Assembly (NCBI GenBank): GCA_026786005.1
Contig: JAJAYW010000206.1
Span: 1-44,648 of the forward strand
Direction: 5' to 3'
DNA length: 44,648 nucleotides
Source: Lysobacter sp.
Lineage (GTDB): Bacteria > Pseudomonadota > Gammaproteobacteria > Xanthomonadales > Xanthomonadaceae
Shown here: piece by piece, positions 689 through 35,637 of the stretch
Layout of the letters: every line of letters starts with the position of its first letter
How positions within the stretch are numbered: position 1 is the first letter of the stretch
Program-made: the position numbers and the translations under genes
Notes under the pieces: model-generated
The model's input: the letters and a program-made list of their open reading frames with translations, nothing else
The model's database searches: none
Told to the model about the DNA's origin: nothing

Positions 689-796
689 GGGGAGTGGGAA
701 ATGGGAAGTAGGGAGTGGGAAAAGCAGAATCGTCAACTGCCACAACATCATTCCAATACCCGGCTCCGACTCCCTACTCACTAACTCCCCACTCCC
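689..796. repeat. Inverted pair of G-rich tandem arrays, family G7, site 1
   Basis: Left arm GGGGAGT GGGAAAT GGGAAGTA GGGAGT GGGA (689-720); right arm CTCCCTACTCACTAACTCCCCACTCCC (770-796). Confidence 0.8.
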
Positions 797-802
797 AGCC
801 TC

Positions 803-1540
803 ATGAATATCCCGCGCCACCTCGCCGTCATCATGGATGGCAACGGCCGATGGGCCGAGCGGCGCAAGCGTCCACGAATCATCGGCCATCGCGCCGGCGC
901 GCGCGCGGTCAACATCTGCATCGACTTCTGCCTCGAGCATGGCATCGAGGCGCTGACGCTGTTTGCCTTTTCCAGCGAAAACTGGGGCCGTCCCGAAGAT
1001 GAAATCGGTGCATTGATGAAGTTGTTCATGAATGCGCTGGACCGCGAAGTGGACGAACTGCATCGTCGCCAAGTGCGCATTCGTTTCATCGGCGATCGTG
1101 AACGCTTCAGCGACAAGATCCGCGCGCGCATGACCAGTGCCGAAACGCAGACGCGCGATAACTCAAGACTCACGCTCACCATCGCCGCCAGTTACGGCGG
1201 CCGCCAGGACATCGTGCTGGCGACGCGCGCGCTGGCCGAAGAGGTGGCTGCGGGCCGCTTGCAACCCGATCAGATCGACGAAGCCGCGGTCCATGCCCGG
1301 ATGGCATTATCCGACTTGCCCACGCCCGACTTGTTCATCCGCACTGGCGGCGACCATCGCATCAGCAATTTCCTGCTGTGGCAGATGGCGTACACCGAAC
1401 TGTGGTTCACCGAAACATTGTGGCCGGAGCTAGATGCCGCCACACTGCGCCGCGCACTGGACGATTACGCCCAGCGCGAACGCCGTTTTGGCCTCACGGG
1501 CGCGCAGATTGCCGCTCAACCTGATCCGGGCACTGCATGA
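803..1540 (+). CDS. uppS: Isoprenyl (undecaprenyl) diphosphate synthase
   Basis: HLAVIMDGNGRWAERRKRPRIIGHRAGA...; cis-prenyltransferase signature. Confidence 0.96.
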   Translation: MNIPRHLAVIMDGNGRWAERRKRPRIIGHRAGARAVNICIDFCLEHGIEALTLFAFSSENWGRPEDEIGALMKLFMNALDREVDELHRRQVRIRFIGDRERFSDKIRARMTSAETQTRDNSRLTLTIAASYGGRQDIVLATRALAEEVAAGRLQPDQIDEAAVHARMALSDLPTPDLFIRTGGDHRISNFLLWQMAYTELWFTETLWPELDAATLRRALDDYAQRERRFGLTGAQIAAQPDPGTA

Positions 1541-2373
1541 CCAGACTTCGCGTCCTGACCGCGTCGATCCTTGCGCCGCTGGCGATCGCGGCGATATTGT
1601 TTTTGCCGACGCCGTGGCTGGTCGCGCTCACGGCCGTGATGTTCCTGGCCGGAATGTGGGAATGGTTTGCGCTTGCGGAAATCGATGACACGCTGGCACG
1701 CACCATCCTGCTGGTCGCCAACCTGTTGCTGATGGTGGCGCTGGTGTGGGGATCGCAATCGGCGACGGGCGGCACGCTGGTGTTGTTCCGCATCGCAACG
1801 GTGGTCGGCGTGATCTGGTGGTTGCTGGCCGCGCTTTGGTTGACGCGCTACGATTTCGCTTCCGATCACGACACGCATGCACGTGCTTTCAAGCTGGCGG
1901 CGGGCACGCTGGCGATTATCCCGGCATGGTGTGCGCTGGCGCTGATCCATGCCGAGCAACCTAATGGACATCGCTGGCTGCTGGTGGCGCTGGCCATCGT
2001 CTGGGCGGCGGACACCGGCGCGTATTTCGCCGGGCGCGCCTTCGGTAAACACAAACTCAGTCCGCGCATCAGTCCCAACAAGACCGTGGAAGGCCTGGGC
2101 GGCGGCATGCTCGCCGGTTTGACCGCTGGCGTGCTGGGCGGCTGGATCGCGGGAGCCAGCCTGCAGCAGTTGCCGCTGGTGGCGCTGATGGCATTCATCG
2201 TCGTGCTCTTCTCGGTGATCGGTGATCTGTTCGAGAGCCTGCTCAAGCGTCATGTCGGCGCCAAGGATTCGGGCAACCTGATTCCCGGACACGGCGGCAT
2301 CCTGGATCGCATCGACAGCGTGCTGGCCGCCCTGCCCGTGTTCGCACTCGGGAAGGCCTGGCTGGAATTTTGA
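1537..2373 (+). CDS. cdsA: Phosphatidate cytidylyltransferase
   Basis: C-terminal SPNKTVEGLGGG...VIGDLFESLLKRHVGAKDSGNLIPGHGGILDRIDS signature. Confidence 0.95.
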   Translation: MTRLRVLTASILAPLAIAAILFLPTPWLVALTAVMFLAGMWEWFALAEIDDTLARTILLVANLLLMVALVWGSQSATGGTLVLFRIATVVGVIWWLLAALWLTRYDFASDHDTHARAFKLAAGTLAIIPAWCALALIHAEQPNGHRWLLVALAIVWAADTGAYFAGRAFGKHKLSPRISPNKTVEGLGGGMLAGLTAGVLGGWIAGASLQQLPLVALMAFIVVLFSVIGDLFESLLKRHVGAKDSGNLIPGHGGILDRIDSVLAALPVFALGKAWLEF

Positions 2374-2389
2374 TGCACTCGGTCGAGAT

Positions 2390-2490
2390 CGTAGGGTGGA
2401 TCTGGACCCACCATTGCGCAGCAAACAAGCGTGCTGGCCGAAACCATGTCGCCCGATCTCAAAGCAGTGGGTCCAGACCCATCCTGCGTA
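2390..2490. repeat. Inverted repeat, family C (GTAGGGTGGRTCTGGACCCAC)
   Basis: Left arm GTAGGGTGGATCTGGACCCAC; right arm is reverse complement of CGCAGGATGGGTCTGGACCCAC; lies between cdsA and dxr. Confidence 0.75.
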
Positions 2491-2499
2491 ACTTCGCCC

Positions 2500-3675
2500 A
2501 TGAATAACGTCGCCGTACTTGGCGCGACCGGGTCGATCGGCACTTCGGCGCTCGATGTCATCACCCGCCATCCAGACCGCCTGCGAGTCAGCGTGCTGGC
2601 GGGCGGACGCAATGTCGACGCATTGATCGCGTTATGCCGACAACATCGTCCCGACCACGCGGTCATCGCCGACGCGGCATCGTTCGCCAGCCTGCGCGAC
2701 GGTTTGCGCGCTGCCGGGCTCAAGACCGAAGCACATCCGGGCAAGGAGGCCATCGATACGCTTGCCGGCGGCGACGCCTGTGACATCGTCATTGCCGCCA
2801 TCGTCGGTGCCGCCGGCCTGTCATCGACGCTCGCCGCAGCGAAGGCCGGCAAACGCTTGTTGCTGGCAAACAAGGAATCGCTGGTGCTGGCCGGCGAACT
2901 GTTGATGGCCGCTGCGCGCAACGCGGGCGCCGACATCATCCCGATCGACAGCGAACACAACGCGATCTTTCAATGCCTGCCGTCCGCCGATGCCTGCGCG
3001 GGTCTGCGCAGGATCGTGCTGACGGCGTCCGGCGGACCGTTCCGGGGTCGCACGCGCAGTACGTTGCGCGACATCACGCCGGAACAAGCCATCGCCCATC
3101 CCAAGTGGTCGATGGGGCCCAAGATCTCCGTCGATTCCGCAACCCTGATGAACAAGGGTCTGGAAGTCATCGAGGCGCATCACTTGTTCGGGCTGCCGGG
3201 CGAGTGCATCGATGTGCTGGTGCATCCGCAAAGCCTGGTGCATTCGCTAGTCGAATTCGTCGATGGATCGACGCTCGCGCAACTCGGTTTGCCGGACATG
3301 CGCACGGCGCTTGCAGTCGGTTTGGCTTGGCCGCAGCGGATCGCATCCGGCGTCGAGCGGCTGGATCTGCTGGAACACGGCCGACTCGAATTCGAGGCGC
3401 CGGATCTGGCCACCTTCCCCTGCCTGCGACTTGCCTACGAAGCCTTGGCGGCGGGCGGCACGACGCCGGCGCTGCTCAATGCACTCAACGAAACCGCTGT
3501 TTCAGCGTTTCTTCAGGGGCGGATAGGCTTCCTAGACATTCCTGCACTTGTTGAAGCAGGCCTTGCAGCGCTTCCATCCACACCCGCCGCTTCGCTGGAC
3601 GTGCTGCTCGAGGCCGATACATCCGCCAGGCATTACGCCGAACAAGCCATCATCCAGATGACGGCAAACCGATAA
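2500..3675 (+). CDS. dxr: 1-deoxy-D-xylulose 5-phosphate reductoisomerase
   Basis: [21 protein letters not shown]...; NADPH-binding motif and [11 protein letters not shown]; the longer ORF start at 2431 reads through a repeat. Confidence 0.96.
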
Positions 3676-3718
3676 GTGACCATCGCGATGAGTGCCTCTA
3701 CTGCCAGGTGTGGATCCA

Positions 3719-5077
3719 ATGTCTGACGTCTTCGGTTCGATCTGGTGGTTGATTGTCAGCATCGGCGTGCTGGTGACGTTCCATGAATTTGGTCATTTCT
3801 GGGTGGCGCGGCGCTGCGGCGTGAAGGTGCTGCGGTTCTCGATCGGCTTCGGCAAGGCGCTGTGGTCGCGGCACGGCAAGGACGGCACCGAATACGTGAT
3901 CGCTGCGATCCCGCTCGGCGGCTACGTCAAGATGCTGGACGAACGCGAAGGCGACGTTGCACCTGCCGATGTCAGCCATGCCTTCAACCGGCAATCGGTG
4001 TGGCAACGGATCGCGATCGTGGCGGCCGGCCCGATCGCGAACCTGTTGCTGTGCGTGACGCTGCTATGGGCGATGTTCGTGGTCGGCAGGCCCGACTTCG
4101 CGCCGACGATTGGCCGCGTCGAAGGGATCGCTGCCGAGGCAGGTTTTCGCACCGGCGACACGCTGCTGAAGGTTGGCGAGCGCGACACGCCCACGTGGAG
4201 TGAAGCTGCCATGGCGTTGACGACGGCTGCCATGGATCGTGCGCCCATCGCCGTGCAGGTCAGGAACGTCGATGACGACATCGTGACCCGTACGCTCCCG
4301 CTGTCCAGGCTGCCGGCCTCGTTTGAAGAGATGCGCGCGATCCAGATCGTCGGTTTGTCGCCACGCCACTACACCTTGCCGGCAGTGGTCGGCAAGATCG
4401 AAGCCGGAACAGCGGCCTACGGCATCCTCATCGAAGGCGATCGCATCACCGCCATCGATGGCGCCAGCGTGTCCTCGTTCGACGACATCGGACCGCTCGT
4501 GCAGACACTGGGCCGCAGTGGCGGCGAGGGCATGGTGGAGGTCGAACGCAACGGCGAGCGTCTTGCGCTGCCGCTCCAGCCCAGGCAACGCACCGAACCG
4601 GATCGCGGCACCTACTGGGCGCTAGGCATCGCGCCGCAAGCACGTACCACGGTGCCGGAATACGACGCGATGCTGCGCTACGGCCCCATCGCCGCCATCC
4701 CGGTCGCGCTGCGCGAAACCGGTACGATGTTCCGCGACTCCGTCGCCATGATCGGCCGCATGTTCAGCGGGCGTGCATCCGCCAAAAACGTCTCCGGGCC
4801 GATCACCATTGCGCGTTATGCCAATGCGTCCGCGCAGCTTGGCCTCGCATGGTTCTTGAACTTCCTGGCCCTGCTGTCGCTCAGTCTGGCCATCATCAAC
4901 CTGATGCCCATACCCGTCTTGGACGGAGGCCACCTGCTGTATTACCTTATCGAGTTGGTCAAAGGCAGCCCATTGAGTGAGCGAGCGATGGCTGCCGGCC
5001 AGTTCGTCGGTCTGGCCCTGTTGGCCAGCCTGATGGGCCTGGCGTTCTACAATGACATCCTCGGGCTGGTGCGCTGA
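3719..5077 (+). CDS. rseP: RIP metalloprotease RseP (site-2 protease)
   Basis: HEFGH (HExxH), PDZ region, NLMPIPVLDGGHLLYY motif. Confidence 0.95.
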   Translation: MSDVFGSIWWLIVSIGVLVTFHEFGHFWVARRCGVKVLRFSIGFGKALWSRHGKDGTEYVIAAIPLGGYVKMLDEREGDVAPADVSHAFNRQSVWQRIAIVAAGPIANLLLCVTLLWAMFVVGRPDFAPTIGRVEGIAAEAGFRTGDTLLKVGERDTPTWSEAAMALTTAAMDRAPIAVQVRNVDDDIVTRTLPLSRLPASFEEMRAIQIVGLSPRHYTLPAVVGKIEAGTAAYGILIEGDRITAIDGASVSSFDDIGPLVQTLGRSGGEGMVEVERNGERLALPLQPRQRTEPDRGTYWALGIAPQARTTVPEYDAMLRYGPIAAIPVALRETGTMFRDSVAMIGRMFSGRASAKNVSGPITIARYANASAQLGLAWFLNFLALLSLSLAIINLMPIPVLDGGHLLYYLIELVKGSPLSERAMAAGQFVGLALLASLMGLAFYNDILGLVR

Positions 5078-5159
5078 TGGCTGTATTTCGATGGCCCTCG
5101 TGTTTCATAAGCCATTTGCCGCGCACTCCGCCCTGCCGACCTCACCTACGGACGTACTA

Positions 5160-7553
5160 ATGACGCGAACCCCCACTCGCCGCCTGCTCACGCTCGCCCT
5201 CGCCGCCGCCATCGCCTTGCCTGCGTGGGCGCAGACGGCCGAACCGTTCACCGTCACCGATATCCGCATCGACGGCCTGCAGCGCATCTCGGCCGGCACC
5301 GTGTTCACCTACCTGCCGATCGAGCGCGGCGACACCGTTGATCAGACGCGTTCGGCCGAAGCGATTCGTGCGTTGTACAAGACCGGCTTTTTCGAGGATG
5401 TCCGCCTGGATCGCCAGAACGGCATCCTGGTGGTGACTGTCACCGAGCGTCCCGCGATCAACACGCTGACCGTGACAGGCAACAAGGACATCAAGTCCGA
5501 GGAATTGCTCAAGGGCCTCAAGGATATCGGCTTGGCCGAGGGCGAAACCTTTGACCGGTTGAGCCTGGATCGCGTCACCCGCGAGCTCAATCGCCAATAC
5601 AACAACCGCGGCAAGTACAACGTCGAAATCTCGCCGACGATCGCGCAACTCGACCGCAATCGCGTGGATGTGACCATCACGGTCAAGGAAGGCAAGGCTG
5701 CCAAGATCCGCCACATCAATCTGGTCGGCAACGAATTGTTCACCGACAAGGATCTCACCGACAGCTGGGAGTCGAGCAAGACCAACTGGTTGTCGTGGTA
5801 CAAGCGCGACGACCAGTACTCGGCGGAAAAACTCTCTGGCGACATCGAGAAACTCAACTCGTTTTATCTTGATCGTGGCTACGTCGATTACAACCTCGAT
5901 TCGACGCAGGTCGCGATCAGCCCCGACAAGCGCGACATGTTCCTCACCGCTGGACTGACGGAAGGCGAGCAGTACAAGATCTCGACGGTCACCGTCAGCG
6001 GCGATACGGTGTTGCCGAAAGAGCAGATCGAGAAGCTGGTGTATGTCAAACCCGACCAGATCTTCTCGCGGCGTTTGCTGGAACTGAGCACCGAGTCGAT
6101 TACCGCGGTGCTCAGCAACATCGGTTATGCGTTTGCAGCGGCCAACCCGATTCCCAGCATCGATCGCGAAAAGCGCACCGTCGGCATCGACATGCAGGTT
6201 GTGCCAGGCCCACGAGTCAACGTGCGCCGCATTGTCTTCAAAGGCAACAGCCGGACGTCCGATGAGGTGTTGCGCCGCGAGATGCGTCAGTTTGAAGGCT
6301 CCTGGTATTCGCAGGCGGCGATCGACCGTTCCAAGATCCGACTGCAGCGCCTCGGATTCTTCGAGGAGGTGAATGTCGAGACACCGGCGGTCGTCGGCAG
6401 CAATGACGAAGTCGATGTGGTGTTCGACGTCAAGGAAACGACGTCTGGCAGCTTCCTGGTGGGCGTTGGATACTCGCAGTTAAGCGGCGTCACCGCATCG
6501 ATCCAGCTGTCCGAAAACAACTTCCTCGGCAGCGGCAACAGGGTGTCGGTCGCAGCACAACGCAGCTCGTACCAGAAGAGTTACAACTTTTCATTCGTCA
6601 ACCCTTATTTCAATGACAGCGGCATGTCACTGGGCTACAACCTGTCCTGGCGGGAGTTCGATTACGGTAACTTCAACGTCGCGCAATATTCGAGCAATAG
6701 CGGTTCCGCGTCTGTAGTAGCTGGCCTGCCGATCACCGAATACGACACGGTGTCCGCGTTATTCGGTATCGACAGCAACGAGATCCTGGCCTTCCGAGGT
6801 TCATCGCCAGATGTGATCGTGGATTACCTAGATGCCCTCGGCCATCGCACTTTCCATGCTTGGCGCGCACAGCTGGGTTATTCGCGCGATACGCGCAACA
6901 GCGCGCTGACGCCGACCTACGGCACCTATCAGCGGATCGGCCTGGAAGCGACCCTGCCCGGCTCGACCGCCGAGTACTACAAAGTCGAATACGAATTCTC
7001 GAAATTCTGGCCGCTGAGCCCTTCGCTCGTGCTCAACACCAGTCTCGACCTGGGCTATGGCGATTCCTATGCCGATCCCCGCTCGGTGACAGTCATCGAA
7101 CCGGACAGCCCGTTCGATTCCGACAATCTGCCCGAATCGCGCGTCGTGACCGCAGATGGCCTGCCTTTCTTCGAGAATTTCTACGCCGGCGGCGTGACTT
7201 CGTCGGGACGCGTGCGTGGGTTCGCTGACAACACTCTTGGTCCGCGCGCATCGAGCGGATTCGGTTTCGCGCAACCGATCGGCGGCGCGCTTAAGACGAT
7301 CGGCACGGTTGAGATGTTCTTCCCGCAGTTATTGGACACCAATGCTGCGCGTATTTCCGCCTTCGTCGATTTCGGCAACGTGTTCAAGGATGTCGACAGT
7401 TTCGACGCAAACGAGTTACGGGCCTCGGCGGGCGTGGCCTTGTTGTGGCGCGCGCCGGTGGGACCGATCACCATCAGTTATGCGTTGCCGATCCGCGAAT
7501 TTGACGGCGACGAAACCGAGCGCCTGCAGTTCACTTTCTCTGGCGGCTTCTGA
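5160..7553 (+). CDS. bamA: Outer membrane protein assembly factor BamA
   Basis: Signal peptide, POTRA repeats (FTVTDIRIDGLQRISAGTVFTYLPIERGD...), C-terminal Omp85 barrel. Confidence 0.96.
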   Translation: MTRTPTRRLLTLALAAAIALPAWAQTAEPFTVTDIRIDGLQRISAGTVFTYLPIERGDTVDQTRSAEAIRALYKTGFFEDVRLDRQNGILVVTVTERPAINTLTVTGNKDIKSEELLKGLKDIGLAEGETFDRLSLDRVTRELNRQYNNRGKYNVEISPTIAQLDRNRVDVTITVKEGKAAKIRHINLVGNELFTDKDLTDSWESSKTNWLSWYKRDDQYSAEKLSGDIEKLNSFYLDRGYVDYNLDSTQVAISPDKRDMFLTAGLTEGEQYKISTVTVSGDTVLPKEQIEKLVYVKPDQIFSRRLLELSTESITAVLSNIGYAFAAANPIPSIDREKRTVGIDMQVVPGPRVNVRRIVFKGNSRTSDEVLRREMRQFEGSWYSQAAIDRSKIRLQRLGFFEEVNVETPAVVGSNDEVDVVFDVKETTSGSFLVGVGYSQLSGVTASIQLSENNFLGSGNRVSVAAQRSSYQKSYNFSFVNPYFNDSGMSLGYNLSWREFDYGNFNVAQYSSNSGSASVVAGLPITEYDTVSALFGIDSNEILAFRGSSPDVIVDYLDALGHRTFHAWRAQLGYSRDTRNSALTPTYGTYQRIGLEATLPGSTAEYYKVEYEFSKFWPLSPSLVLNTSLDLGYGDSYADPRSVTVIEPDSPFDSDNLPESRVVTADGLPFFENFYAGGVTSSGRVRGFADNTLGPRASSGFGFAQPIGGALKTIGTVEMFFPQLLDTNAARISAFVDFGNVFKDVDSFDANELRASAGVALLWRAPVGPITISYALPIREFDGDETERLQFTFSGGF

Positions 7554-7580
7554 CATCCCACTTCGACGGAGCGCTGCGGC

Positions 7581-8636
7581 ATGACGTCGATCACGGCTGA
7601 AGAGCTTTCGAGTCGTTTCGGATTGCCGCTGCGCGGGGATGCAAGCCTGTCGGTTGGCGGTGTCGCGACGCTGGGAAGTGCAGGTGCGGGCCAGCTGACC
7701 TTCCTCGCCAATCCGCGCTATCGCTCGCAACTCGCCGGCACCAGGGCGTCGGTCGTGGTTTTACGTGCGGAAGATGCTGCGGATTGTCCGACGACGGCAT
7801 TAATTGCCGAAGATCCTTATTCTGCTTTCGCCAGGATCGCGGCGCTGTTCGAACAAAAAACGGCGCCTGCTGCCGGCGTGCATGCCAGTGCGGCCGTCGA
7901 TCCATCGGCCGCGATTGATGCAACCGCCTCCATCGGCCCCTTCGTCTCAATCGGCCCCCGAACCCGCATCGACGCGGGCGCGATCGTGGGCCCCGGCTGC
8001 GTCATCGGCGAGGATTGCCATATTGGCGAGCACAGCGAACTGGTCGCGCGCGTCACCCTGGTCACCCGCGTCATGCTTGGCAAGCGCGTGCGCATCCATG
8101 CCGGCGCCGTGCTCGGCGCCGACGGGTTCGGACTGGCCATGGATGGCGGCCGCTGGCTGAAGGTGCCGCAGCTCGGCGGCGTGCGGATCGGCGACGATTG
8201 CGAAATCGGCGCGAACACCACCATCGATCGCGGCGCGCTCGACGACACGGTACTCGAGGAGGATGTCCGTCTCGACAACCAGATCCAGATTGGCCACAAC
8301 GCCCACATCGGCGCGCATACCGCCATGGCGGGCTGTTCGGCGGTTGCCGGCAGCGCACGGATCGGTAATTACTGCCTGATCGGCGGCGGCGCGGGCGTGC
8401 TCGGGCATCTGGAGATCTGCGATCGGGTCGTCGTCACGGCCATGAGCCTGGTGACCAGTTCGATCCGCGAGCCCGGCGAGTATTCATCGGGCACGCCTTT
8501 GATGGACAATCGCAGCTGGCGCAAGAATGCCGCGCGTTTCAAGCAACTCGATGCGCTGACCCGGCGCGTGACTTCGGCGAGTTTGCAATCGGCAAGCACG
8601 CAAGCCGCGGACAAACCTGCCGCGGACAAGGAATGA
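7581..8636 (+). CDS. lpxD: UDP-3-O-(3-hydroxyacyl)glucosamine N-acyltransferase
   Basis: LpxD N-terminal domain plus left-handed beta-helix hexapeptide repeats; position between bamA and fabZ. Confidence 0.95.
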   Translation: MTSITAEELSSRFGLPLRGDASLSVGGVATLGSAGAGQLTFLANPRYRSQLAGTRASVVVLRAEDAADCPTTALIAEDPYSAFARIAALFEQKTAPAAGVHASAAVDPSAAIDATASIGPFVSIGPRTRIDAGAIVGPGCVIGEDCHIGEHSELVARVTLVTRVMLGKRVRIHAGAVLGADGFGLAMDGGRWLKVPQLGGVRIGDDCEIGANTTIDRGALDDTVLEEDVRLDNQIQIGHNAHIGAHTAMAGCSAVAGSARIGNYCLIGGGAGVLGHLEICDRVVVTAMSLVTSSIREPGEYSSGTPLMDNRSWRKNAARFKQLDALTRRVTSASLQSASTQAADKPAADKE

Positions 8637-8638
8637 GA

Positions 8639-9094
8639 ATGAGTGCTGCCGTGACACTGCCGATCGACACCGACCGCATCCAGGCGTTGCTGCCGCATCG
8701 TTATCCCTTTCTGCTGGTGGATCGGGTGACGGAGTTCGAACCCAACAAGCATCTGCTGGCCTACAAGAACGTGACCATCAACGAGCCGTTTTTCCAGGGC
8801 CACTTCCCGGAACATCCGGTGATGCCGGGTGTGCTGGTGATCGAGGCACTGGCGCAGGCGGGTGGCTTGTTGACGCAGCTCTCGCGTGACAGCGATACCG
8901 CGAACAAATTGTTCTACCTGGTCAAGATCGACAACGCCAAATTCTCCAGGATGGTGGTGCCCGGTGATCGACTTGAACTCGACGTTACGCTGAAGCGCAA
9001 TATCCGCAACATGGCGATCTACCACTGTATCGCGCGCGTCGATGGCGAGCAGGTGGCCTGCGCGGAAATCCTCTGCGCCGAAGTCAAGGGATAA
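8639..9094 (+). CDS. fabZ: 3-hydroxyacyl-ACP dehydratase FabZ
   Basis: [14 protein letters not shown]...[26 protein letters not shown]; start 8633 or 8639. Confidence 0.97.
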
Positions 9095-9097
9095 GCC

Positions 9098-9904
9098 ATG
9101 GCCGAGGCATCGACCTCGCTCCAATCGGACAAGATCCATCCAACGGCTGCAATCGCCGCAAACGTGCAGCTGGGCGCAGGCGTGCAGGTCGGCGCGTTTA
9201 CGTCGATCGGCGCCGACGTCATCGTCGGCGACGGCACTCATATCGGTTCGCATTGCAGCCTCGATGGGCCGATGCGGATCGGGCGTGATAACCGCATCCT
9301 CGGCCATGCCGCGCTCGGCGGCGAGCCACAGGACAAGAAATTCCGCGGAGAACGTAGCGAATTGGTCATCGGCGACCGCAACACCATCCGCGAGTTCGTC
9401 ACCATCAATCGCGGCACGGGCGATGGCGGCGGCATCACGCGTATCGGCGACGACAACTGGATCCTCGCCTACGCGCACATCGCGCACGATTGCACCGTCG
9501 GCAACCACACCGTGTTTTCCAACAATGCGACGTTGGCCGGCCATGTCGAGGTCGGCGATCACGTGATCCTCAGCGGCTTCACCGGCATCCACCAGTTCTG
9601 CCGGATCGGCGCGCATGCCTTCATCGGCATGGGCGCGCTGATCAATGGCGATGTCCCGCCGTTCGTGATGGTCGCCGCCGACCAATACGGGCGCCCGCGC
9701 GGCATCAACAGCGAAGGCCTGAAACGTCGCGGTTTCGACAGCGATCGCATCGCGGCGATCAAGCGTGCGTACCGTGCTTTATATGTCTCCGGCGCATCCC
9801 TTGGCGACGCCAAGTTGAAACTGGCGGAACTGGCACGCGACAGCAATGACGTGCGTGACCTGCTCGACTTCATTGAGCGTGGCGAGCGGCCGTTGTTGCG
9901 ATGA
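9098..9904 (+). CDS. lpxA: UDP-N-acetylglucosamine acyltransferase
   Basis: Hexapeptide repeats with [45 protein letters not shown]. Confidence 0.97.
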
Positions 9905-11088
9905 GTGGCGGGAATCGGGACTCCCCCATCCGCATCGCCCTGGTCGCCGGCGAAAGCTCCGGCGACGTGCTCGGCGCCAGCCTGATCGAACAACTGCGCC
10001 TGCGTTATCCCGAAGCGCAATTCGCCGGCATCGGTGGCGACGCGATGCGTGGCGCGGGACTTGAGACCTGGCACGACGCCGACGATCTGGCCGTCATGGG
10101 CCTGGCGGAAGTGCTGCGTCATTTGCCGCGTTTACTCAAGCTGCGCAGCGCATTGCGCCGACGCGTGTTGCGATGGAACCCCGATGTCTTCATCGGCATC
10201 GACGCGCCGGATTTCAATCTGGGCCTGGAACGCTGGCTGAAACGCCGTGGTATCCGCACCGTGCATTACGTCAGTCCGTCGATCTGGGCATGGCGCGAGA
10301 ATCGTGCGCAAAAAATCGGCCGCAGCGCCGATCGCGTGTTGTGCCTGTTCCCGATGGAGCCGCCGCTGTATGCCCGGCACGGCGTCGACGCGCGTTTCGT
10401 CGGCCACCCGCTGGCCGACAGCATGCCACTGGAACCCGATCGCAGTGCAGCCCGCGCGCTGTTGGACATTCCGATGCACGCTCCGGTGTTGGCAGTGTTA
10501 CCCGGAAGTCGCCTGGGCGAAATCGCGCGCATGTTGCCGGTCTTCCTCGCTGCCGCAGCGCGCGTGGCAAGTCGAATATCCAATCTTCGTGTATTGATTC
10601 CCGCTGCCAACGAACAATGCGGGACTGCGATTCGTGACGAACTGCAACGCCATCCCGACATCGCCACGCAGGTCATCGTACTGGACGGCCACTCGCACGA
10701 TGCAATGGCCGCCAGCGATGTCGTGCTGCTGGCCTCGGGCACGGCTGCGCTGGAAGCCCTGTTCGCAAAACGTCCGATGGTGATCGGGCATCGCATCGCG
10801 CCCCTCACATATCGCATCGTCACCACACTCGGATTGCTGAAGACGCGTTACGTGAGCCTGCCCAATATCCTTGCCGGCACGGAACTGGCCCCGGAATTGC
10901 TGCAGGACGATTGCACCGCCGAAAAACTCGCTGCCGCCGTGCTGCACTGGTTCGAACAGCCCGAAGCCTCGGCGGCATTGCGTCCGCAATACCGGGCAAT
11001 TCATGAATCGTTGCGAAGCGATTCCGCATCGCGCGCGGCGGATGCCGTCGCCCAGGTGATCGATACGCCTGCGGGTTCGTTGCGATGA
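9901..11088 (+). CDS. lpxB: Lipid-A-disaccharide synthase
   Basis: [21 protein letters not shown]...FAGIGGDAM...; [12 protein letters not shown]. Confidence 0.96.
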
Positions 11089-11834
11089 GCGGCGGGACTG
11101 GGGACTCGGGACTGGGAACTCGGGAAGCGCAGCGTCCCCTGCTCGTTGCGCGCATGGCCGAAGACGACATCCCAGACGCGACCGTTTTCGCGCGTCCCGA
11201 GTTCCCAGTCCCCAGTCCCGCCCCCATCCACATCGCAGGGGTCGATGAAGCCGGGCGCGGGCCGCTCGCTGGGCCAGTCTGCATCGCCGCGGTGGTGTTC
11301 GATTCGGCGCAGCCACGCATCAATGGCCTGGATGATTCCAAGCGGCTGTGCGCTGCGCGCCGCGAATTCCTGTACGCCCGCATCGTCGATCGCGCGTTGG
11401 CGTGGCATGTCGTGTTCATTGATGTCGAAGAAATCGACCGCATCAACATCTATCACGCCACGTTGCTGGGCATGCGTCGCGCACTCGAGGCCGTGGTTCG
11501 ATTGATCGGTGGTGCCGGGACCTGTGTCGCGCGCATCGACGGCAACGCCCTGCCACGCGGCCTGCCTTGCCATGCGGAAGCGTGGATCGGCGGCGACGCG
11601 CGCGATCGTTCGATCATGGCCGCGTCGATCCTCGCGAAAGTGTCGCGCGACCGGCTGATGATCGACTTGCACCAGCAGCACCCGCAATACGGTTTCGATG
11701 CCCACAAGGGCTATGCATCACCGGCGCATCTGGCCGCGTTGAACGAGCACGGTCCGTGCCAGCATCACCGTCGTAGTTTCGCACCCGTGCAGCGCGCCGA
11801 AAACATGAATCGCGAATTGCTGTCTTGCACATGA
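11085..11834 (+). CDS. rnhB: Ribonuclease HII (annotated N-terminus lies in a repeat; true start uncertain)
   Basis: [53 protein letters not shown]; first ~45 aa of ORF encoded by repeat DNA. Confidence 0.93.
11094..11219. repeat. Inverted pair of G-rich 7-nt tandem arrays, family G7, site 2
   Basis: Left: GGGACTG GGGACTC GGGACTG GGAACTC GGGAAGC; right arm read as reverse complement: GGGACTG GGGACTG GGAACTC GGGA. Confidence 0.9.
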
Positions 11835-12026
11835 ATGTCGCCGACATCTGTCATGCAGACCAATAGCAGATGCGATTCGCTCGCAATGGCGTGAAAATCG
11901 CGCTGCATCCTGTCGATGTGACCGCGCGCCATCCTCGCCGACCGGCGACTCGCGGTCCCGCTCCTGACCGGCACGGGAGATGTCCATGAATCTTCGCGCC
12001 CTCGCGCCATCCGAACCGCCGCTGCC

Positions 12027-17403: not shown

Positions 17404-17542
17404 CTTTCCTTCTCCCTTCGGGAGAAGGTGCCCGAAGGGCGGATGAGGGCGCAGGAATGACTCGCATGGAAACTCCTCTTGATAGTCACCGTCCCACCCT
17501 CATCCGGCGCTACGCGCCACCTTCTCCCGGAGGGAGAAGGAA
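17404..17542. repeat. Inverted pair of family B elements
   Basis: CCTTCTCCCTTCGGGAGAAGGTGCCCGAAGGGCGGATGAGGG ... CCCTCATCCGGCGCTACGCGCCACCTTCTCCCGGAGGGAGAAGG. Confidence 0.9.
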
Positions 17543-20059: not shown

Positions 20060-20098
20060 CCCGAGCTTGCGCAATTGTGGGTGCGCGAATGAAAGTTC

Positions 20099-20197
20099 GT
20101 AGCCCGGATATCCCCGGACTTGATTTGGGGCATCAGGGGCTTTTCGTAACGTCACCAAGATCCCCGGGTGCGGCCTGTGGCCATACCCGGGCTACGC
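20099..20197. repeat. Inverted repeat, family D (GTAGCCCGG...CCGGGCTAC)
   Basis: CGTAGCCCGGATATCCCCGG ... CCCCGGGTGCGGCCTGTGGCCATACCCGGGCTACG. Confidence 0.75.
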
Positions 20198-20222
20198 ACT
20201 TGCTGCCGTGATCCGTGAGAAG

Positions 20223-24215: not shown

Positions 24216-24230
24216 GATGGCCCGTAGTTC

Positions 24231-24361
24231 CGTAGGGCGGGTCTCGACCCGCAGCTTTTTTGTCGGCCACAACACGACCGCTACAGCCACGACTTCCCGG
24301 CATCATCCGCGGACCAGAAAATCCCAACCTCCGTAAAGGCGGGTTGAAACCCGCCCTACGT
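24231..24361. repeat. Inverted repeat, family C (GTAGGGCGGGTYTCRACCCGC)
   Basis: CGTAGGGCGGGTCTCGACCCGC ... GCGGGTTGAAACCCGCCCTACG. Confidence 0.8.
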
Positions 24362-24405
24362 CTCTGGACCGCTTTGTTTACGTTGGCCGTTACAGCGAAC
24401 GTCAA

Positions 24406-24430
24406 CCCATCCCTATCCCACCCTCCCCTT
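24406..24430 (-). other. Predicted G-quadruplex motif just downstream of the DUF1501 gene
   Basis: Minus strand: AAGGGGAGGGTGGGATAGGGATGGG, five G-tracts with loops of 1-3 nt. Confidence 0.65.
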
Positions 24431-24447
24431 GAAGGCAGGGCCAAAGC

Positions 24448-25641: not shown

Positions 25642-25642
25642 T

Positions 25643-27154: not shown

Positions 27155-27247
27155 TCCTGCGGGCGCTCGAGAGTGAAAACGCAGAACGGCCGCGACGGTT
27201 GACGTCGCGGCCGCTCAATCGAAACAACGCTTACGGTTGTGCCGCGC

Positions 27248-27643
27248 CTATTTGAACAGGCGCATCGTCATCGGGTAACGATAGGTCTGGCCGTCATAGG
27301 CCTTGAACCCCGCGATCAACGTGCACACGATCCACACCAGCGCCAGGATCAGCCACACCGGCAACGCAACGATGATGCCGATGCCCAGCGTGAAGATCAC
27401 CAGCATCACCGCGGCCGCGGCGTAGATGAACATGCTCAGGTTGAAGTTGATCGCTTCCTTGGCGTGCTCCGCCGCGAACGCGTACTTGTCGCGCACCACC
27501 ATCCACACCACCAGCGCGCCCAACGCGCCGGCGATACCAGCGACCCAACTGGTCAACAAGGCAGCGGCCAACGCCGCGAAATGCGCGCCTGCCGCCCATT
27601 GGCGGTCGCTCAGGCTCGGGGAAGTCGTCTGCAAGGTTTCCAT
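27248..27643 (-). CDS. DUF4870-type small membrane protein
   Basis: METLQTTSPSLSDRQWAAGAHFAALAAALL...EAINFNLSMFIYAAAAVMLV. Confidence 0.75.
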   Translation of the reverse strand: METLQTTSPSLSDRQWAAGAHFAALAAALLTSWVAGIAGALGALVVWMVVRDKYAFAAEHAKEAINFNLSMFIYAAAAVMLVIFTLGIGIIVALPVWLILALVWIVCTLIAGFKAYDGQTYRYPMTMRLFK

Positions 27644-27735
27644 TGATCGGCTCCTCCGGAAACATTCCGGTTCAAACGAATAATGGGGCTTGCTTGCGCC
27701 CGCACAAGCCAACTTTCGACCTACGCCGCCACTTT

Positions 27736-27805
27736 TGTAGGAGCGCACCTGGGTGCGATGGGGCTCTACCGGTAAAGCCACATCGCGCCCGGGTGCGCTC
27801 CTACA
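27736..27805. repeat. REP-like palindromic element, family A
   Basis: TGTAGGAGCGCACCTGGGTGCGATGGGGCTCTACCGGTAAAGCCACATCGCGCCCGGGTGCGCTCCTACA. Confidence 0.9.
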
Positions 27806-27814
27806 GGTTAGGGA

Positions 27815-29182
27815 TCACTCACCCGCCACGGTCATCTTGCCAACCAAAATCGAACCGGTGCGGATGTGCGAGCGCGGATCGACGTCGCTGCCAACGGCTT
27901 CGATCGCCGCGAACATCGCTTTCAGGTTGCCCGCGATGGTGATGCCGTCGACCGGGTACGAGATTTTTCCGTTCTCAATCAGGAAGCCGCCCGCGCCGCG
28001 TGAATAATCGCCGGTGACGTTGTTGACGCCCTGCCCCATCAAATCGGTGACCAGCAGCGCACGCGGCAATCCGGCGACGAGTTCGTCGAAGCCACCGGCA
28101 TTGGCCGACACCTCAAGGTTATGCACGCCGCCCGCATTGCCGGTGGTCTGCAGCCCCAGCTTGCGTGCCGAATAGCTGCCCAGCACGTAACGCTGCAGCA
28201 CGCCTTCCGCAATCAGTGGCGATTCGTGTGTCGCAACACCTTCTGCATCGTACGAGGAGGAACGGAATCCACCTTGCACGAACGGTTGCTCGTCGATCCG
28301 CATCCACGCCGGAAAAATCTGCTTGCCGGCGTGATCGATCAGGAAACTTGCGCGGCGGTAAAGCGCGCCGCCGGATACCGCGCCGAGCAGATGACCGATC
28401 AGCGAGCGCGCGAGATCAGCCGCGAACAACACCGGCATCTCGGCAGTGGGCAGCGAGCGCGGCTGCAAGCGCGCCACGGTGCGTTCCGCCGCGCGGCGTC
28501 CAACCGAAGCCGCCGCTTCCAGCCGATCAGACGACAACGCCGTCGTGTACCAGCCGTCGCGCTGCATGCCATCACCGCGGCCAGCAATCAGCGCGCAGCC
28601 GATGCTGTGTTGCGTGTCGCGTTCGCGGCCGACGAAGCCATGCGTGTTGGCGTAAACCGACAGGCTCTCGCCGCTGCCGACCGATGCGCCATCGGAATTC
28701 TCGATGCGCTTGTCGAACTCGCGGCCGGCGTTCTCGCAGGCCAGTGCCAGATCGATGGCGCGATCGGCTTCGATGGCCCACGGATGCCACGAATCGAAAT
28801 CGCGGATGTCGGTCGCCATCAATTCCGCATCGGCCAGGCCGGCAGCAGGATCTTCCTCGGTGAATGTCGCAATTGCGCACGCTTGCGCGACCGTAGCGTC
28901 GAGGCTTTCCTCGCGCAAATCAGCGGTGCTGGCACTGCCCTTGCGATGGCCGAAATACACTGTGACGGCGATACCGCGATCGCGAGTGGATTCGACCGTC
29001 TCGACCGCGCCCATGCGGACGTTAACGTTGAGGCCGCGTTCTTCCGAGCACGCGACTTCGGCCTGGGTCGCGCCATGCGCCTTGCAGCGATCGAGCAAGC
29101 CCTGTGCCGTTGCGGCCAAGCGGTCGAGTCGCGCCTGGCTGTCGTCGGCTGCTGTTGCTACTGGAATGGAAACTGCGTTCAA
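27815..29182 (-). CDS. pmbA: Metalloprotease PmbA/TldE
   Basis: TldE-like: GLNVNVRMGAVETVESTRDRGIAVTVYFGHRKGSASTADL; DLMGQGVNNVTGDYSRGAGGFLIENGKISYPVDGITIAGNL. Confidence 0.94.
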   Translation of the reverse strand: MNAVSIPVATAADDSQARLDRLAATAQGLLDRCKAHGATQAEVACSEERGLNVNVRMGAVETVESTRDRGIAVTVYFGHRKGSASTADLREESLDATVAQACAIATFTEEDPAAGLADAELMATDIRDFDSWHPWAIEADRAIDLALACENAGREFDKRIENSDGASVGSGESLSVYANTHGFVGRERDTQHSIGCALIAGRGDGMQRDGWYTTALSSDRLEAAASVGRRAAERTVARLQPRSLPTAEMPVLFAADLARSLIGHLLGAVSGGALYRRASFLIDHAGKQIFPAWMRIDEQPFVQGGFRSSSYDAEGVATHESPLIAEGVLQRYVLGSYSARKLGLQTTGNAGGVHNLEVSANAGGFDELVAGLPRALLVTDLMGQGVNNVTGDYSRGAGGFLIENGKISYPVDGITIAGNLKAMFAAIEAVGSDVDPRSHIRTGSILVGKMTVAGE

Positions 29183-29235
29183 TGCTTTATCCTTCGGTTG
29201 AAGCGGATTTAATCAAAACAGGATCAAGCAAGGCT

Positions 29236-29396
29236 GGATCAACCTCTCCGTCGTCCCGGCGCAAGCTGGGATCCATTTTGACCTTGATCTTCAGCGCCAA
29301 AGCGAAGATCAAGATGGGTTCCAGCTTGCGCTGGAATGACGAGCAGGAAGATCGGATCGACCTCTCCGTCATCCCGGCGCGCAAGCCGAGATGACG
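29236..29396. repeat. Inverted repeat with an extra direct half-copy, family F
   Basis: CTCCGTCGTCCCGGCGCAAGCTGGGATCC... GGTTCCAGCTTGCGCTGGAATGACGAG ... CTCCGTCATCCCGGCGCGCAAGCCGAGATGACGAG. Confidence 0.75.
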
Positions 29397-29435
29397 AGCC
29401 GAAAATCAGGCCTTGCCCAATCACAAACGGATGCG

Positions 29436-29996
29436 ATGACCATGCGTGGAAAAGACGAGGGCAGCGGTGAATTCCTCGGCCCAAGCCGCAGCGAGCAGCG
29501 GCGCGGGGCGCTGGAAGTCTTTGAACTCGGTGAAAAGCTGGTGGTACTGAGCGCCGCGCAACTGGCGAAACTGCCGTTGCCCGAAGACCTGCTTCAGCAC
29601 ATCGAGGACACCCAGCGCATCCCGTCGCAAATTGCGCGCAAGCGGCAATTGCAGTTCCTGGCCAAGCAGCTGCGGCGCGAAGACGATGAAACGCTGGACG
29701 CTATCCGCGATGCGCTGGATGCTGGCGGCGATGCGTCGCGTCGCGAAACCGCTCAACTGCACCAAGTCGAGGCGTGGCGTGATCGGCTGCTGGCCGATGG
29801 CGACGCGGCGCTGACCGAGTTGCTGGACAAATATCCATCCGCGGATCGGCAACGCCTGCGCCAGTTGGCGCGCAATGCCGTCGAGGAACGCAATCGCAAC
29901 AAGCCGCCGCATGCGTTTCGGGAATTGTTTCGTGAGTTGCGGGAGTTGCTGGGAGAGGGGAGAGGGGAGACGGGAGAGGAAGGCGAAACCTCGTAA
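29436..29996 (+). CDS. darP: Ribosome-associated protein DarP/YjgA
   Basis: [67 protein letters not shown]; beside pmbA. Confidence 0.92.
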
Positions 29997-30029
29997 CCCG
30001 GCACTCACGTCTCCCGTCTCCCCTCTCCC
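29951..30029. repeat. Inverted pair of G-rich 7-nt tandem arrays, family G7, site 3
   Basis: Left: GGGAGAG GGGAGAG GGGAGAC GGGAGAG (29951-29978); right arm reverse complement: GGGAGAG GGGAGAC GGGAGA. Confidence 0.9.
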
Positions 30030-30040
30030 GTTCCTCGGGC

Positions 30041-31483
30041 TCACGCCTGAGTCCCGCCAACAGTAATCCCCTCGATCAGCAACGAAGGCTGGCCCACGCC
30101 CACCGGCACGCTCTGCCCGTCCTTGCCGCAGACGCCGACGCCTTCGTCAAGCGCAAGATCGTGGCCGATCATTTTCACTTTCTGCATCGTCTCAGGGCCG
30201 TTGCCGATCAGCGTCGCGCCCTTGACCGGCGCGGTGATCCTGCCGTCCTCGATCAGGTAGGCCTCGGTCGCGGAGAATACGTATTTTCCCGACGTGATAT
30301 CGACCTGCCCGCCGCCGAAATTCACCGCGTACAAACCCTTCTTGACCGAACGAATCATCTCTTCGGGATCGTGTGGGCCGGCCAGCATGTAGGTGTTGGT
30401 CATGCGCGGCATGGTCAGGTGTGCGAACGATTCGCGGCGGCCGTTGCCGGTGGGCGCGACACCCATCAAGCGCGCGTTGAGCGTGTCCTGCATCAAGCCG
30501 ACCAGCACGCCGTCCTCGATCAGGGTGTTGCATTGCGTCGGCGTGCCTTCGTCATCGACGTTCAACGAACCGCGGCGGCCCGGCAGCGTGCCGTCATCGA
30601 CGATGGTCACGCCCGGCGATGCGACGCGCTGTCCCATGCGCCCTGCATACGTGCTGGTGCCCTTGCGGTTGAAGTCGCCCTCGAGGCCATGGCCAACGGC
30701 CTCGTGCAGCAACACGCCGGGCCAGCCCGCGCCCAGCACCACCGGCATGACGCCTGCCGGTGCATCGATCGCTTCGAGATTCACCAGCGCCTGGCGCAAG
30801 GCTTCGCGCGCCCACGTTTCCGGTTTTCCGCCACCCAACAATTCGACGTAGGAATAGCGACCGCCGCCGCCGCCGTGTCCCGATTCGCGGCGACCGTTCT
30901 GTTCGACGATCACCTGCACGCTGAACCGCACCAGCGGCCGCACGTCGGCGGCGAGGACACCGTCGCTGCGCGCCACCAGGATCGTGTCGACCCCACCCGC
31001 CAGACTGACCGTGACCTGCTGTACCCGCGGATCGGCGGCGCGCAGCAACTTGTCGATCTTGCGCAAGGCTTCGACCTTGTCCTCGTTGCCGAGCGCATCG
31101 ATCGGATCGACCGGCGCATACAGCGCGCGACCATCACCGGGCACCAGCGCACGCGCGACATGCGCACTGCCGTCGCGCGCGATTGCACGCGCGGAATGCG
31201 CCGCCGACAGCAACGCTTCGGCATTGATGTCATCGGAATAGGCGAAGCCGGTCTTCTCCCCCGAAATCGCGCGCACGCCGACGCCCTGTTCGATCGAATG
31301 CGCCCCGTCCTTGACGATGCCATCCTCGACGCTCCAGCTTTCGCGGCGTGCATGCTGGAAATACAGGTCGCCGAAGTCGATCCCCGGCCCGAGCAGCGTG
31401 CCGAATGCACGATCCAGTCCGTTGGTGTCGAGGCCGCTGGGGAGCAGCAGGCGGGATTGCGCGAGGGTGAGGGATTGGGTCAT
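30041..31483 (-). CDS. tldD: Metalloprotease TldD
   Basis: [53 protein letters not shown] zinc motif. Confidence 0.96.
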
Positions 31484-31542
31484 GTGGAGTTCGATTATTT
31501 CGTTGAAGAGTTGATGACTGGCGGTTCGTTTCTGCACGTTTT

Positions 31543-31612
31543 TGCAGGAGCGCGCCAGGGCGCGATGGGGCGTTACCGGGAAAGCCACATCGCGCCCAGG
31601 TGCGCTCCTGCA
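31543..31612. repeat. REP-like palindromic element, family A (terminal variant)
   Basis: TGCAGGAGCGCGCCAGGGCGCGATGGGGC...GCCACATCGCGCCCAGGTGCGCTCCTGCA. Confidence 0.9.
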
Positions 31613-31658
31613 AAGGCACATGCCTGACCATACAAACATGCGGGCTTCGGCGATCGAA

Positions 31659-34600
31659 TCAACCCGAAGGCACCGCTTCCCGCACGGTCACGCGCGACTG
31701 CTGGCGTCCAATCACCTCGACCTTGGGATCCTTCCACGGCCCGGTGACCCGATAGGTCTTGGCCGCCATCTGCCCAAGCGGCTTCCTCAACACCGCATTG
31801 GCCGCCGCGCCGATCGCGGCGCCGACCGGGCCACCTGCAATCGCGCCAACGGCTGTCAGCAGGTTGCCGGCCTTGGGCCGCACTTCGATGGTCTGATCGA
31901 ACTGCTGCGCACGCAGATCAGCGGCGCCGCGGATGCGGATTTCCGCGGCCGGGCCGTCGATGACCAGGTCGTCGCTACGGGCGCGGCCATTGCCGAAACG
32001 TATGTTGCCGCTGATGCGGTTGAAGGCGAATCCCTTGTTGAAGAAATCGCGAAAATCCAGGGTCAGACGCCGCGGAAGTTCGGCCAGGCTGAGCAGGCCG
32101 AGAACGCGGCCGGCGCCGGGTTCGATCTGGACCAGCCGGCCCTCCTTCGCCACAAGATTCAATGTCCCATCGAGCTGTTCCAGCTTGAACGCCGCCGGAC
32201 TGCCGGGCCAGTTGGCATCGAACTTCGCCGTGCCCTTGCCGCCTGCAAGCCGGCCGCCGAAACCGAAACCCGTCAGCAATGCGCCGAAGTCGTCGCTGTC
32301 GATCGCCACGCCCAATCGCGTCCGCGCGGCAGTGCCGCGGCCGAGCCAGTCGCCGTTGAGATCGATGCGCTGTTTGGGCGCACGCAATTGCAACTGTTCG
32401 ATGCGCATGCCGCCCGCGACCGGACGCGTGCGCAATTTCGCGGTGCCGAACGCGGCAGTGCCAAAGCGGAAATCGGCCACGTCGATGGCCAGTGGTGGAA
32501 TCTTGCCTGGGTCCAGCTCGTCCGTGACCGGAGCCGCCACCGCCGCGATGCGGTCCGCTTGGTTGCCTGTAACCGGCGTCGCCGATCGCCAATGCAAACG
32601 CTCCAGGCGTCCTGCGATCGCAGCGCCATCACCCTGCGGAACCATCAACGCGCCGGCGAGCGAGTCGCCTTGCAACTGGATCGCCGTGCCGTTGTTGGCG
32701 GCCGCAACCTGCAACCGCGTGTTGCGGAATGCGCCCCCCAGCAACAACAAACGATCGGCGGTGACATCGATCCGTCGCAACACGAGGCCGCTGCCCTTTC
32801 CGTTACTGCCCTTGGCGTCGCCACTCTTTGCAATTCCGATCCAGCCGATGGCATCCAGCGTCGCCGCACGCCCGGTCGCGATCAATCCGGACGCGGGCGC
32901 CGGTTCGTTGACACTGCCCGCGCCGAGCACGGCACGGATGCCGGTCTGGCCGTTGCTGCTGCGCGCGCGCACGGCCATCAGGTTGCCGAGCGCGACTCTC
33001 ACTTCACCCGTGCCGATCGGCAACGGGATGTCGACCGTCGTCGGCAAGGCCGCGCCTGCGGATTTGTTGAGGGGCGCTGGCAAGGTGAGTGCCGTGCCGA
33101 CCAGGTTCGAGCGTAACTGCACGCGGCTCGGCGTTTGCTGCGCGACACTGCCTGGATTGCCGGACTTGGGGATCGCCAGTGCCACCGTCCACGTCGAGCG
33201 TCCATCCAGATGCGGCTTGAGCCATGCCAGGGTCGGTGCGCGATCGATCAGGTCGTCGGCGGCAATCGTCGCATCGAGTTCGGCCTCGAAGCCCTGGCCC
33301 TTGTCGCGCGCATATTCACCGGCCCGCAGGCTCAAACGACCGGGTTGATTGTCGTGACGCACCGCGAGTTTCTCGGCGCCGAACCCGCCGCGGCCGAAAT
33401 CGATGTTGCCTCGGACATCACTGAAGGTGAGCTTGAGGTCGCGGTCAACCAGTGTTGCGCCGAGTAACTGGACGTTGCCATCGAGTGTCTGCCGTGGAGC
33501 ATCGCGATACAGAGGCTGGTTCAATTTCATGTCGACGTTCGCGGGGCCACGCGCATCGAGCCTGGCCAGCGTCGCCGCGTTGGTTTTCTGCAGCGGACTC
33601 TGTTTGAGCAACGCCAGCATTTTCGCCGCGTCGCCACCGCCTTGTGCATCCACGGTCAATTCGGCCCGCGCAAAATTCGGAATCTCCGCGTGCATCGCAC
33701 GAACGCCGACGCCGGCGATCACGCCCTTGCCATCGAGCGTCATGCCATTGTCGATGAACGCGACATCGGCTTCGATGGCATCAAGCGCGGGCCAGTCGGG
33801 ATGGAACTTGATGTTGCCGCGACGAATCGTGGCAATTGCCTCGGAGCGCCCGTTGCCATCACGGAACGGCCAGTCGTCGAGATCGCCGGAAATCATCGCG
33901 CGGCCGTCGTGGAGCGTGCCGCTGACCAATGCCGCATCCAGCCAGCGGATCAGGTTCGGTGACATCCGATGGCGCACCCACAACGTTTTCGCTGCGGCGA
34001 ACGAGAGATCGCCCAACGATGCGGCGAGATCGATCTGTGGCCGCGTGCCATCGCCCTGGAACAGCAGGCCGCCACGCAGGTCCGCGCTGTAACTGGATCC
34101 CGCCAGTCGCAACGCATCCGTGCCGACGCGCCATCCCGCGCCTTCGCGCCAGCCTGCAATCGCGCCGGTCGCATTGATGTCATGGGCCGCGCCAAATCCG
34201 CGCGGCCAATCGAGACGAAGCCTGGCAGCGGAGTCGAGTTGCAGTGAAAACCCTTCGCTATCGCCATGCAACTCGCCGCCGATGCCACTGATCCCCGGCG
34301 CATCGCCGACCGCGGCAAAGGCGACCTGACGCAGCACACCATCCGCGCGCATGCGGCCACCCTGCACGCCTGCAACCGTGACGCGCTCGAGATGCGCCGA
34401 GGGCCTGGCCTGCGACAACCACCGACGCAGGCCGGGATCGAGTTGATCGCTCAGCGCAGCCACGGCCAGCAGCGGGCCGGCATCGATGCTGTGGGCAACC
34501 AGCGCGTAACGGCGGCCGCCCGCGACGATCAAGCCATCCATGCTTTGCGTGGTCTTGTCGGTCGTGATGCGCATCCGCGGTGCATCGAAGCGCCAGCCGC

Positions 34601-35513
34601 CGTCGACCGTCTGCCAACGCGCACGCGTTTCGACCTTGTCGAAACGGGCACGTGCAGCAACGGTCGTCGTACTCCCGCCCGCACCTTGCAAGACCAGATC
34701 ATCCAGTTCTGCATCGACCGTGATGTTCGCGATCCGGTGCGCACTCAATTCGCCCCACGCCTGTGCGCGGCCGCTGCCGCTCTGCGCCGCGACACCTGCG
34801 AACCGCAGCAACGGCGACCACGCGGTCAGGTCTGCCTGCCGTGACCCCGCGTAGACCCGTCCATTGCCGCGTTTGCGATCGAAATCCAGCACCGCATCGA
34901 TCGGCGTCGCATCGCGCGCGATCACCCCGCGCACACCGGCGCGCACACGATCGCCATTGACCTGCATGCGCAGATCGATGTCCGGAAGCTGCACATCGAT
35001 GCCCATCGACGGCGCGATGATCGCAAGCTTGCCGTCGATCACCTGCAGTTCGCCCAGTCCTTCGAGCGTTTGCAACGGGTCGGCGCCTCGCTGTTGCTGC
35101 CCCGGCAGGCCGCGGACGGTCCAACGCCCGTCCGCGCTGCGCTCGAGCGTCAACGACAGGCCGCGCAAGCGCAATTCGGTGAACGAACGGCCCGGCAGCA
35201 GGCCCGCGTATTGCGCCACCAGGATTTCGGCTGCGCCGATCGGCACCGCGTTGCGACCCGCACCGATGCGCAGTCCGTCCAGCCGCAACAACGGTCCGCG
35301 CCGCGTCCAGGCAGTTTCAACACGATCGAACGCGACCGGCCGACCAGCGCGTTCACTGAGCCACGCCGCGATCTTGTCGGGATGACGCTCGGCCATCGGC
35401 AGCAACTGGCTGGTGACCGCCGCAACCAGCGCCATCAGGATCAGGACCGCAGCGATGCCGTACCACACGCCGCGGTGCAGCAGGCGGGCTTGCCGGCGGA
35501 AAAGAGTGGGCAT
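31659..35513 (-). CDS. yhdP: YhdP family (AsmA-like) envelope protein
   Basis: 1284 aa, N-terminal TM ([21 protein letters not shown]), [34 protein letters not shown]-terminal [46 protein letters not shown]. Confidence 0.9.
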
Positions 35514-35534
35514 CAGGCGGGCACGTCCGTGGTC

Positions 35535-35637
35535 GGGACGCGGGGCTGGGGATTGAGGACTAGGGACAAGCTCCGCTCTACTAAATCAAAAACGACCGGG
35601 ACTTTCCCAGCCTCCAGTCCCCAGCCCCCAACCCCCG
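35535..35637. repeat. Inverted pair of G-rich 7-nt tandem arrays, family G7, site 4
   Basis: Left: GGGACGC GGGGCTG GGGATTG AGGACTA GGGACAA; right arm reverse complement: GGGGGTT GGGGGCT GGGGACT GGAGGCT GGGAAAG. Confidence 0.8.

Follow-up and report, generated by a model that had tools for sequence, protein, structure and literature searches.

The facing arrays and their genes

The window is a stretch of 44,648 nucleotides from Lysobacter sp. (assembly GCA_026786005.1, contig JAJAYW010000206.1, positions 1-44,648 of the plus strand). Direct reading of this DNA reveals facing G-rich heptamer arrays at four gene junctions: frr–uppS, lpxB–rnhB, darP–tldD, and rng–yhdP. The flanking genes (frr, uppS, lpxB, rnhB, darP, tldD, yhdP, and the RNase E/G gene, rng) were assigned by Pfam. 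Each element consists of a G-rich arm and an inverted, C-rich arm, located as follows:

689..719, plus strand: G arm of element 1, GGGGAGTGGGAAATGGGAAGTAGGGAGTGGG, followed by an AAAAGC inner box, 4 nt past the frr stop (682-684)
765..796, minus strand: C arm of element 1, with the uppS start (803) 6 nt further on
11094..11124, plus strand: G arm of element 2, with ACTG/ACTC units, 5 nt past the lpxB stop (11086-11088)
11196..11225, minus strand: C arm of element 2, in frame within the N-terminal extension of the rnhB frame (11085-11834)
29951..29974, plus strand: G arm of element 3, with AGAG/AGAC units, within the 3' end of darP (stop 29994-29996)
30004..30029, minus strand: C arm of element 3, its outer edge 11 nt from the tldD stop (30041-30043, minus strand)
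35535..35564, plus strand: G arm of element 4, read on the plus strand, on the yhdP side
35606..35637, minus strand: C arm of element 4, its outer edge 5 nt from the rng stop (35643-35645, minus strand)

These four sites had been described in a sequence-only reading of the window, and all were recovered by an independent inverted-repeat search: element 1 at 696-720/765-789 (76%), element 2 at 11091-11126/11187-11222 (83%, with a sub-arm at 93%), element 3 at 29951-29976/30004-30029 (92%, with a core at 100%), and element 4 at 35542-35564/35606-35628 (78%). The arm-to-arm agreement described for every site is imperfect at sites 1 and 4. The units are GGGAGTG, GGGACTG/C, GGGAGAG/C, and GGGGCTG; by direct reading, GGGAATC is absent from all four window sites. 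The sequence-only reading also placed each pair close to a stop codon. This is accurate for the outer edges, which lie 4, 5, 11, and 5 nt from the stops of frr, lpxB, tldD, and rng, but the darP G arm sits inside the darP frame and the lpxB–rnhB pair inside the rnhB frame.

These overlaps touch two coding regions. At darP, some of the last codons come from the G arm of element 3 (29951-29996). Element 2 (11085-11230) lies within the open rnhB frame, with both arms inside 11085-11834, and in three regions from relatives (L081, L082, and L084) the C arm is likewise in frame ahead of a GVDEAGRG motif. Judging by these frames, translation of rnhB may take in part of the element 2 palindrome as extra N-terminal sequence.

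Other facing repeats are present in the window. Inverted repeats of the form (TG)TAGGAGCGCRCC... at 27736-27805, 31541-31614, and 39899-39977 make up a palindrome family separate from the heptamer elements, and they are close to the REP given for the Xanthomonas axonopodis RAYT (GTAGGAGCGCACCTGGGCGCGAC, PMC2817692). REP-like facing repeats with heads GTAGGGYGG or GTAGCCCGG and arms 55-86 nt apart were found at 2390-2488, 24231-24360, and 20093-20201. Further facing families lie at 17406-17542, 40459-40585, 29237-29353, and 37148-37287 (TTCCTTCTCCC.., CCCTCTCCC.., GTCGTCCCGGCGCAAGC.., and TTATCCGCGTT..); in relatives, similar-looking repeats sit at darP–tldD in place of the heptamer element.

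Polarity and anatomy of the element

Under a strict definition of an array (at least three GGG tracts spaced 6-8 nt), the window contains three facing, no divergent, and no tandem pairs, against means of 0.01, 0, and 0.015, respectively, in 200 dinucleotide shuffles; the C arm of site 1 is too degenerate to be counted under this definition. A pattern search of the window's own genome returned 10 facing and 0 divergent places, a count that takes in overlapping registers and one poly-G artefact. In 1.42 Mb of relatives' DNA, grid-sampled from five genomes and picked regardless of known pairs, we found 122 arrays, whose adjacent pairs were 31 facing, 0 divergent, and 6 tandem. Summed over 120 genomes of the family, pattern counts were 776 for the facing arrangement and 18 for the divergent one (the reversed control), both inflated by overlapping registers and poly-G artefacts. 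The orientation claimed from the window, with the G arm on the left and the C arm on the right, holds in the window's own genome and in the sampled relatives. It should be noted that contigs C40, C123, C127, C151, and C166 of the window's own assembly (G000) carry long poly-G runs, often at contig ends, that raise simple G-run counts and are probably assembly artefacts.

Arrays that appear to be single point the same way: a decayed inverted partner was detected on the inner side of 40 of 90 and on the outer side of 2 of 90, in a set that takes in stretches selected around known pairs. Logos and a 14-copy alignment gave the layout of an arm, which runs from an outer GGC(C) edge through about four heptamers to an inner box near GGCAAAAGCGG and is mirrored on the opposite side. 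The inner box follows the pattern G-N-AA-N-AGC-G, and a variable centre lies between the two boxes. The window's own genome shows a fainter box, present in 13 of 29 arms; the background rate, taken from relatives, is 15%. Elements are about 80-140 bp long. One of 108 bp has many matches in each genome, frequently on both strands, with identities of 72-80%.

Any element that ends in terminal inverted repeats displays a single polarity, so the polarity seen here needs no special function; on this anatomy, it is the ordinary signature of the terminal inverted repeats of one element of about 105 bp. Recent transposition of one master copy was considered and rejected, as trimmed spacers were mostly unrelated between loci, yet one type does have many diverged full-length matches. 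No target-site duplication or recent whole-copy insertion was identified.

Occupied and empty gene ends

Placement at gene ends was confirmed in the relatives: with a simple gene model, 21 of the 50 G-arm outer edges that face a gene 3' end lie 0-10 nt past the stop, and no inner edge comes within 15 nt of a gene 3' end. The larger distances are partly due to genes missed by this model. Some species have the element at a given orthologous junction and others lack it, and hardly anything else separates the stop from the next start. Among the junctions read, frr–uppS is occupied in 3 and rng–yhdP in about 11, and the same junctions carry unrelated facing repeat families in other species. A scan of genome contigs with LpxB gave two loci, too few to be of use. 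Separately, contig C140 of the window's own assembly (region L285) carries another darP, 76% identical, and the end of an rng gene, 95% identical, so this assembly probably contains DNA of a close relative; on C140 the element is absent from both the darP–tldD and the rng–yhdP junctions.

Scattered occupancy, and the replacement of the element by unrelated facing families at the same junctions, are what one would also expect of selfish or neutral slippage-prone repeats, devoid of function, that pile up where insertions harm least. This reading is compatible with the copying part of the explanation that we prefer and denies only its functional step. We hold it to be a rather unlikely one, for reasons that come from the behavior of the arms.

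Both arms change type together

In the window's own genome, arm similarity is 0.74 within loci and 0.57 between loci (p = 0.001), as the sequence-only reading had proposed, and this was its strongest part. The same excess was seen in genomes G017, G006, and G057. In G012, G016, G022, and G078, whose unit types hardly vary across the genome, it did not reach significance. The agreement extends to orthologous junctions. Relatives yielded 26 elements at the orthologues of the window's four junctions; with arm boundaries set by eye on the G/C tracts, their arm similarity was 0.644, compared with 0.494 when right arms of the same locus were shuffled among species (p = 5e-5); shuffling among loci within a genome gave p = 0.0025. 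Mirrored unit order between arms was not significant (p = 0.085); the arms are therefore not exact copies, and unit order was rejected as a sign of recent copying.

Two loci were then followed through 13 congeners of G006: locus A, next to lpxB, and locus B, which is lpxB–rnhB. At locus A the units are of the ATT, AAT, ACT, ACC, or ACG type, with left and right in agreement, and the overlap of left and right types is 0.788 versus 0.237 in shuffles; at locus B the types are AAT, ATT, and ACT, and the overlap is 0.705 versus 0.302 (shuffle p-values at both loci ignore the relatedness of the 13 congeners). The spacer of locus A alters along with the unit type, and the flanks remain 93-98% identical between species. 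The centre of locus B, which contains the rnhB start, remains alignable through the type changes. A-C type mismatches persist at locus B in several species.

Type changes were therefore also counted on a flanking-gene tree, which requires a minimum of 7 for locus A and 5 for locus B, the latter including a loss in G184; the types are spread over this tree with about the randomness of shuffled labels. The 7 or more at A and about 4 at B amount to about 11 independent type changes. After these changes, both arms are of one type in nearly every genome, the exception being G184, whose elements have decayed. Unit types are also common to several loci within a genome. Neutral slippage acting on each arm alone would not hold the two arms to one type through at least about 11 changes, and it would have to be combined with a copying process.

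Hairpins and G-quadruplexes

The four sites are predicted to form strong RNA structures (fold z-scores of -4.4 to -6.6), and a folding model that permits G-quadruplexes (G4s) prefers the full hairpin at all four sites on both strands. It is thus conceivable that selection on an RNA (or cruciform) hairpin holds the arms complementary, the units drifting and compensating changes following, without any copying machinery. Besides the strong hairpins, such selection would account for the agreement of the arms through type changes and for the placement directly past stop codons. We nevertheless find it unlikely, since one type change would need about 8 parallel substitutions (4 units in 2 arms) despite flanks that are 93-98% identical at locus A. 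Nor does hairpin selection alone predict types common to several loci in a genome, and the A-C mismatches persisting at locus B speak against it as well.

A second possibility is that the G4 is the selected entity, with a G4 in nascent RNA or DNA acting at gene 3' ends and the C arm resolving it. Arms with four tracts are the modal class in the sampled relatives (at least four tracts in 131 of 168 paired arms), and in vitro G4 formation has been reported for oligonucleotides of the related repeats (Rehm et al. 2015, PMC4692102). Contrary to what had been stated, not every G arm in the window fits the G4 pattern: with one loop of 10-11 nt, site 4 fails to match the usual G3 N1-7 pattern on both strands. 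In addition, genomes G026 and G124 have the same facing heptamer layout with units that lack GGG, such as CCGGTAG and GGTAACC, although some arms mix in GGG units, and GG-only units, by their composition, cannot make ordinary three-layer G4s. With the hairpin also beating the G4 in the folding model, we judge selection on the G4 improbable. A nascent G arm could possibly fold into a G4 before the hairpin forms, and a G4/hairpin switch, as proposed in the sequence-only reading, is conceivable, but the lasting feature looks like the mirror symmetry rather than the quadruplex shape.

Two known kinds of structure were rejected. Intrinsic terminators were set aside, as a scan of sites 3 and 4 showed no excess of terminator-like sites around them and only one weak match overlapping element 4. 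A known structured RNA was dismissed because no Rfam family matches the elements.

A model for the heptamer palindromes

From their anatomy, polarity, placement, presence/absence, and joint arm change, we conclude that the four window elements represent copies of a non-coding palindrome dispersed in genomes of the Xanthomonadaceae. The explanation that we favor, with moderate confidence, is that of REP/BIME-like palindromes dispersed at gene 3' ends, with arms kept alike by copying or conversion and transcribed as strong hairpins; its mechanism is inferred and its function putative. Against it weigh the mostly unrelated spacers, the failure to find target-site duplications or recent whole-copy insertions, the non-significant mirroring of unit order, and the four genomes whose arm agreement was not significant. 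Copies would spread or be exchanged between gene 3' ends that tolerate an insert, as REP/BIME do. Slippage would alter the number of units within an arm, and gene conversion or strand switching, acting inside an element as well as from copy to copy, would give its two arms a common unit type. In the transcript, the arms would pair as a strong 3'-end hairpin, possibly protecting or delimiting the upstream mRNA. G4 formation by the nascent G arm may occur, but it would not be the conserved property.

A more speculative variant, to which we give little credence, invokes a process in trans, dedicated to these elements and run by some recombinase, nuclease, or other factor with a sequence preference drifting between lineages, that would rewrite or swap whole palindromic cassettes at fixed gene-end landing sites. 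Both arms would then switch unit type at once while the flanks, and sometimes the centre, stay.

Heptamer repeats are abundant in an important bacterial family. With joint arm change, an architecture that survives the loss of GGG, and a conserved inner box, the palindrome rather than the quadruplex moves into focus. The element is now defined, with orthologous sites both filled and vacant, which makes its function (at mRNA 3' ends) and its mode of change (copying or swapping) directly testable.

Comparison with known repeats

REP/BIME elements, which are associated with RAYT (IS200/IS605-like) transposases (PMC2817692), share many traits with the heptamer elements: both are short, dispersed, palindromic, and intergenic, occur as facing doublets with a variable centre, and have sequence types that differ between species. 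In contrast, the GT(A/G)G head and adjoining compact, GC-rich palindrome of REPs are lacking at all four elements, whose arms are tandem heptamer arrays, and typical REPs occur in the same window as a separate family.

The closest known repeats are those of Rehm et al. 2015 (PMC4692102), who described GGGAATC/GGGANTN heptamers in two Xanthomonas genomes, Xcc and Xac. Their arrays have 2-26 units, with four preferred, are mostly intergenic, lie on the sense strand no more than 50 bp from stop codons, and are under-represented between divergent genes. Oligonucleotides of these repeats formed G4s in vitro, and a competition between stem-loop and G4 was considered possible. The same study counted 70 (Xcc) and 75 (Xac) convergent pairs; the repeats and their facing arrangement are thus already published, contrary to the supposition in the sequence-only reading that facing pairs were undescribed. 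Literature searches on the unit sequences, and on any inverted-repeat family that might already bear a name, returned only this study and a typing paper. The main text of Rehm et al. describes no inner box, using none of the terms aagagc, conserved motif, and spacer, and no mention of joint arm switching was found in it. Arm co-change across species, the inner box, and an architecture surviving GGG loss would appear to be new relative to the published repeats.

Like the repeats of Rehm et al., the window elements have 7-nt G-rich units, with four preferred, near stop codons, and they form convergent pairs. Unlike them, they have AGAG, ACTG, AGTG, and GGGGCTG units, to which relatives add ACC and GG-only units, and they fall outside the published definition (at least two tandem GGGANTN with at least one GGGAATC). 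The window's own genome does carry (GGGAATC)2 on contig C56, and relatives bear AAT/ATT types at the junctions orthologous to those of the window. For these two reasons, the window elements are best called a variant of the heptamer family of Rehm et al. rather than members of it by the published definition.
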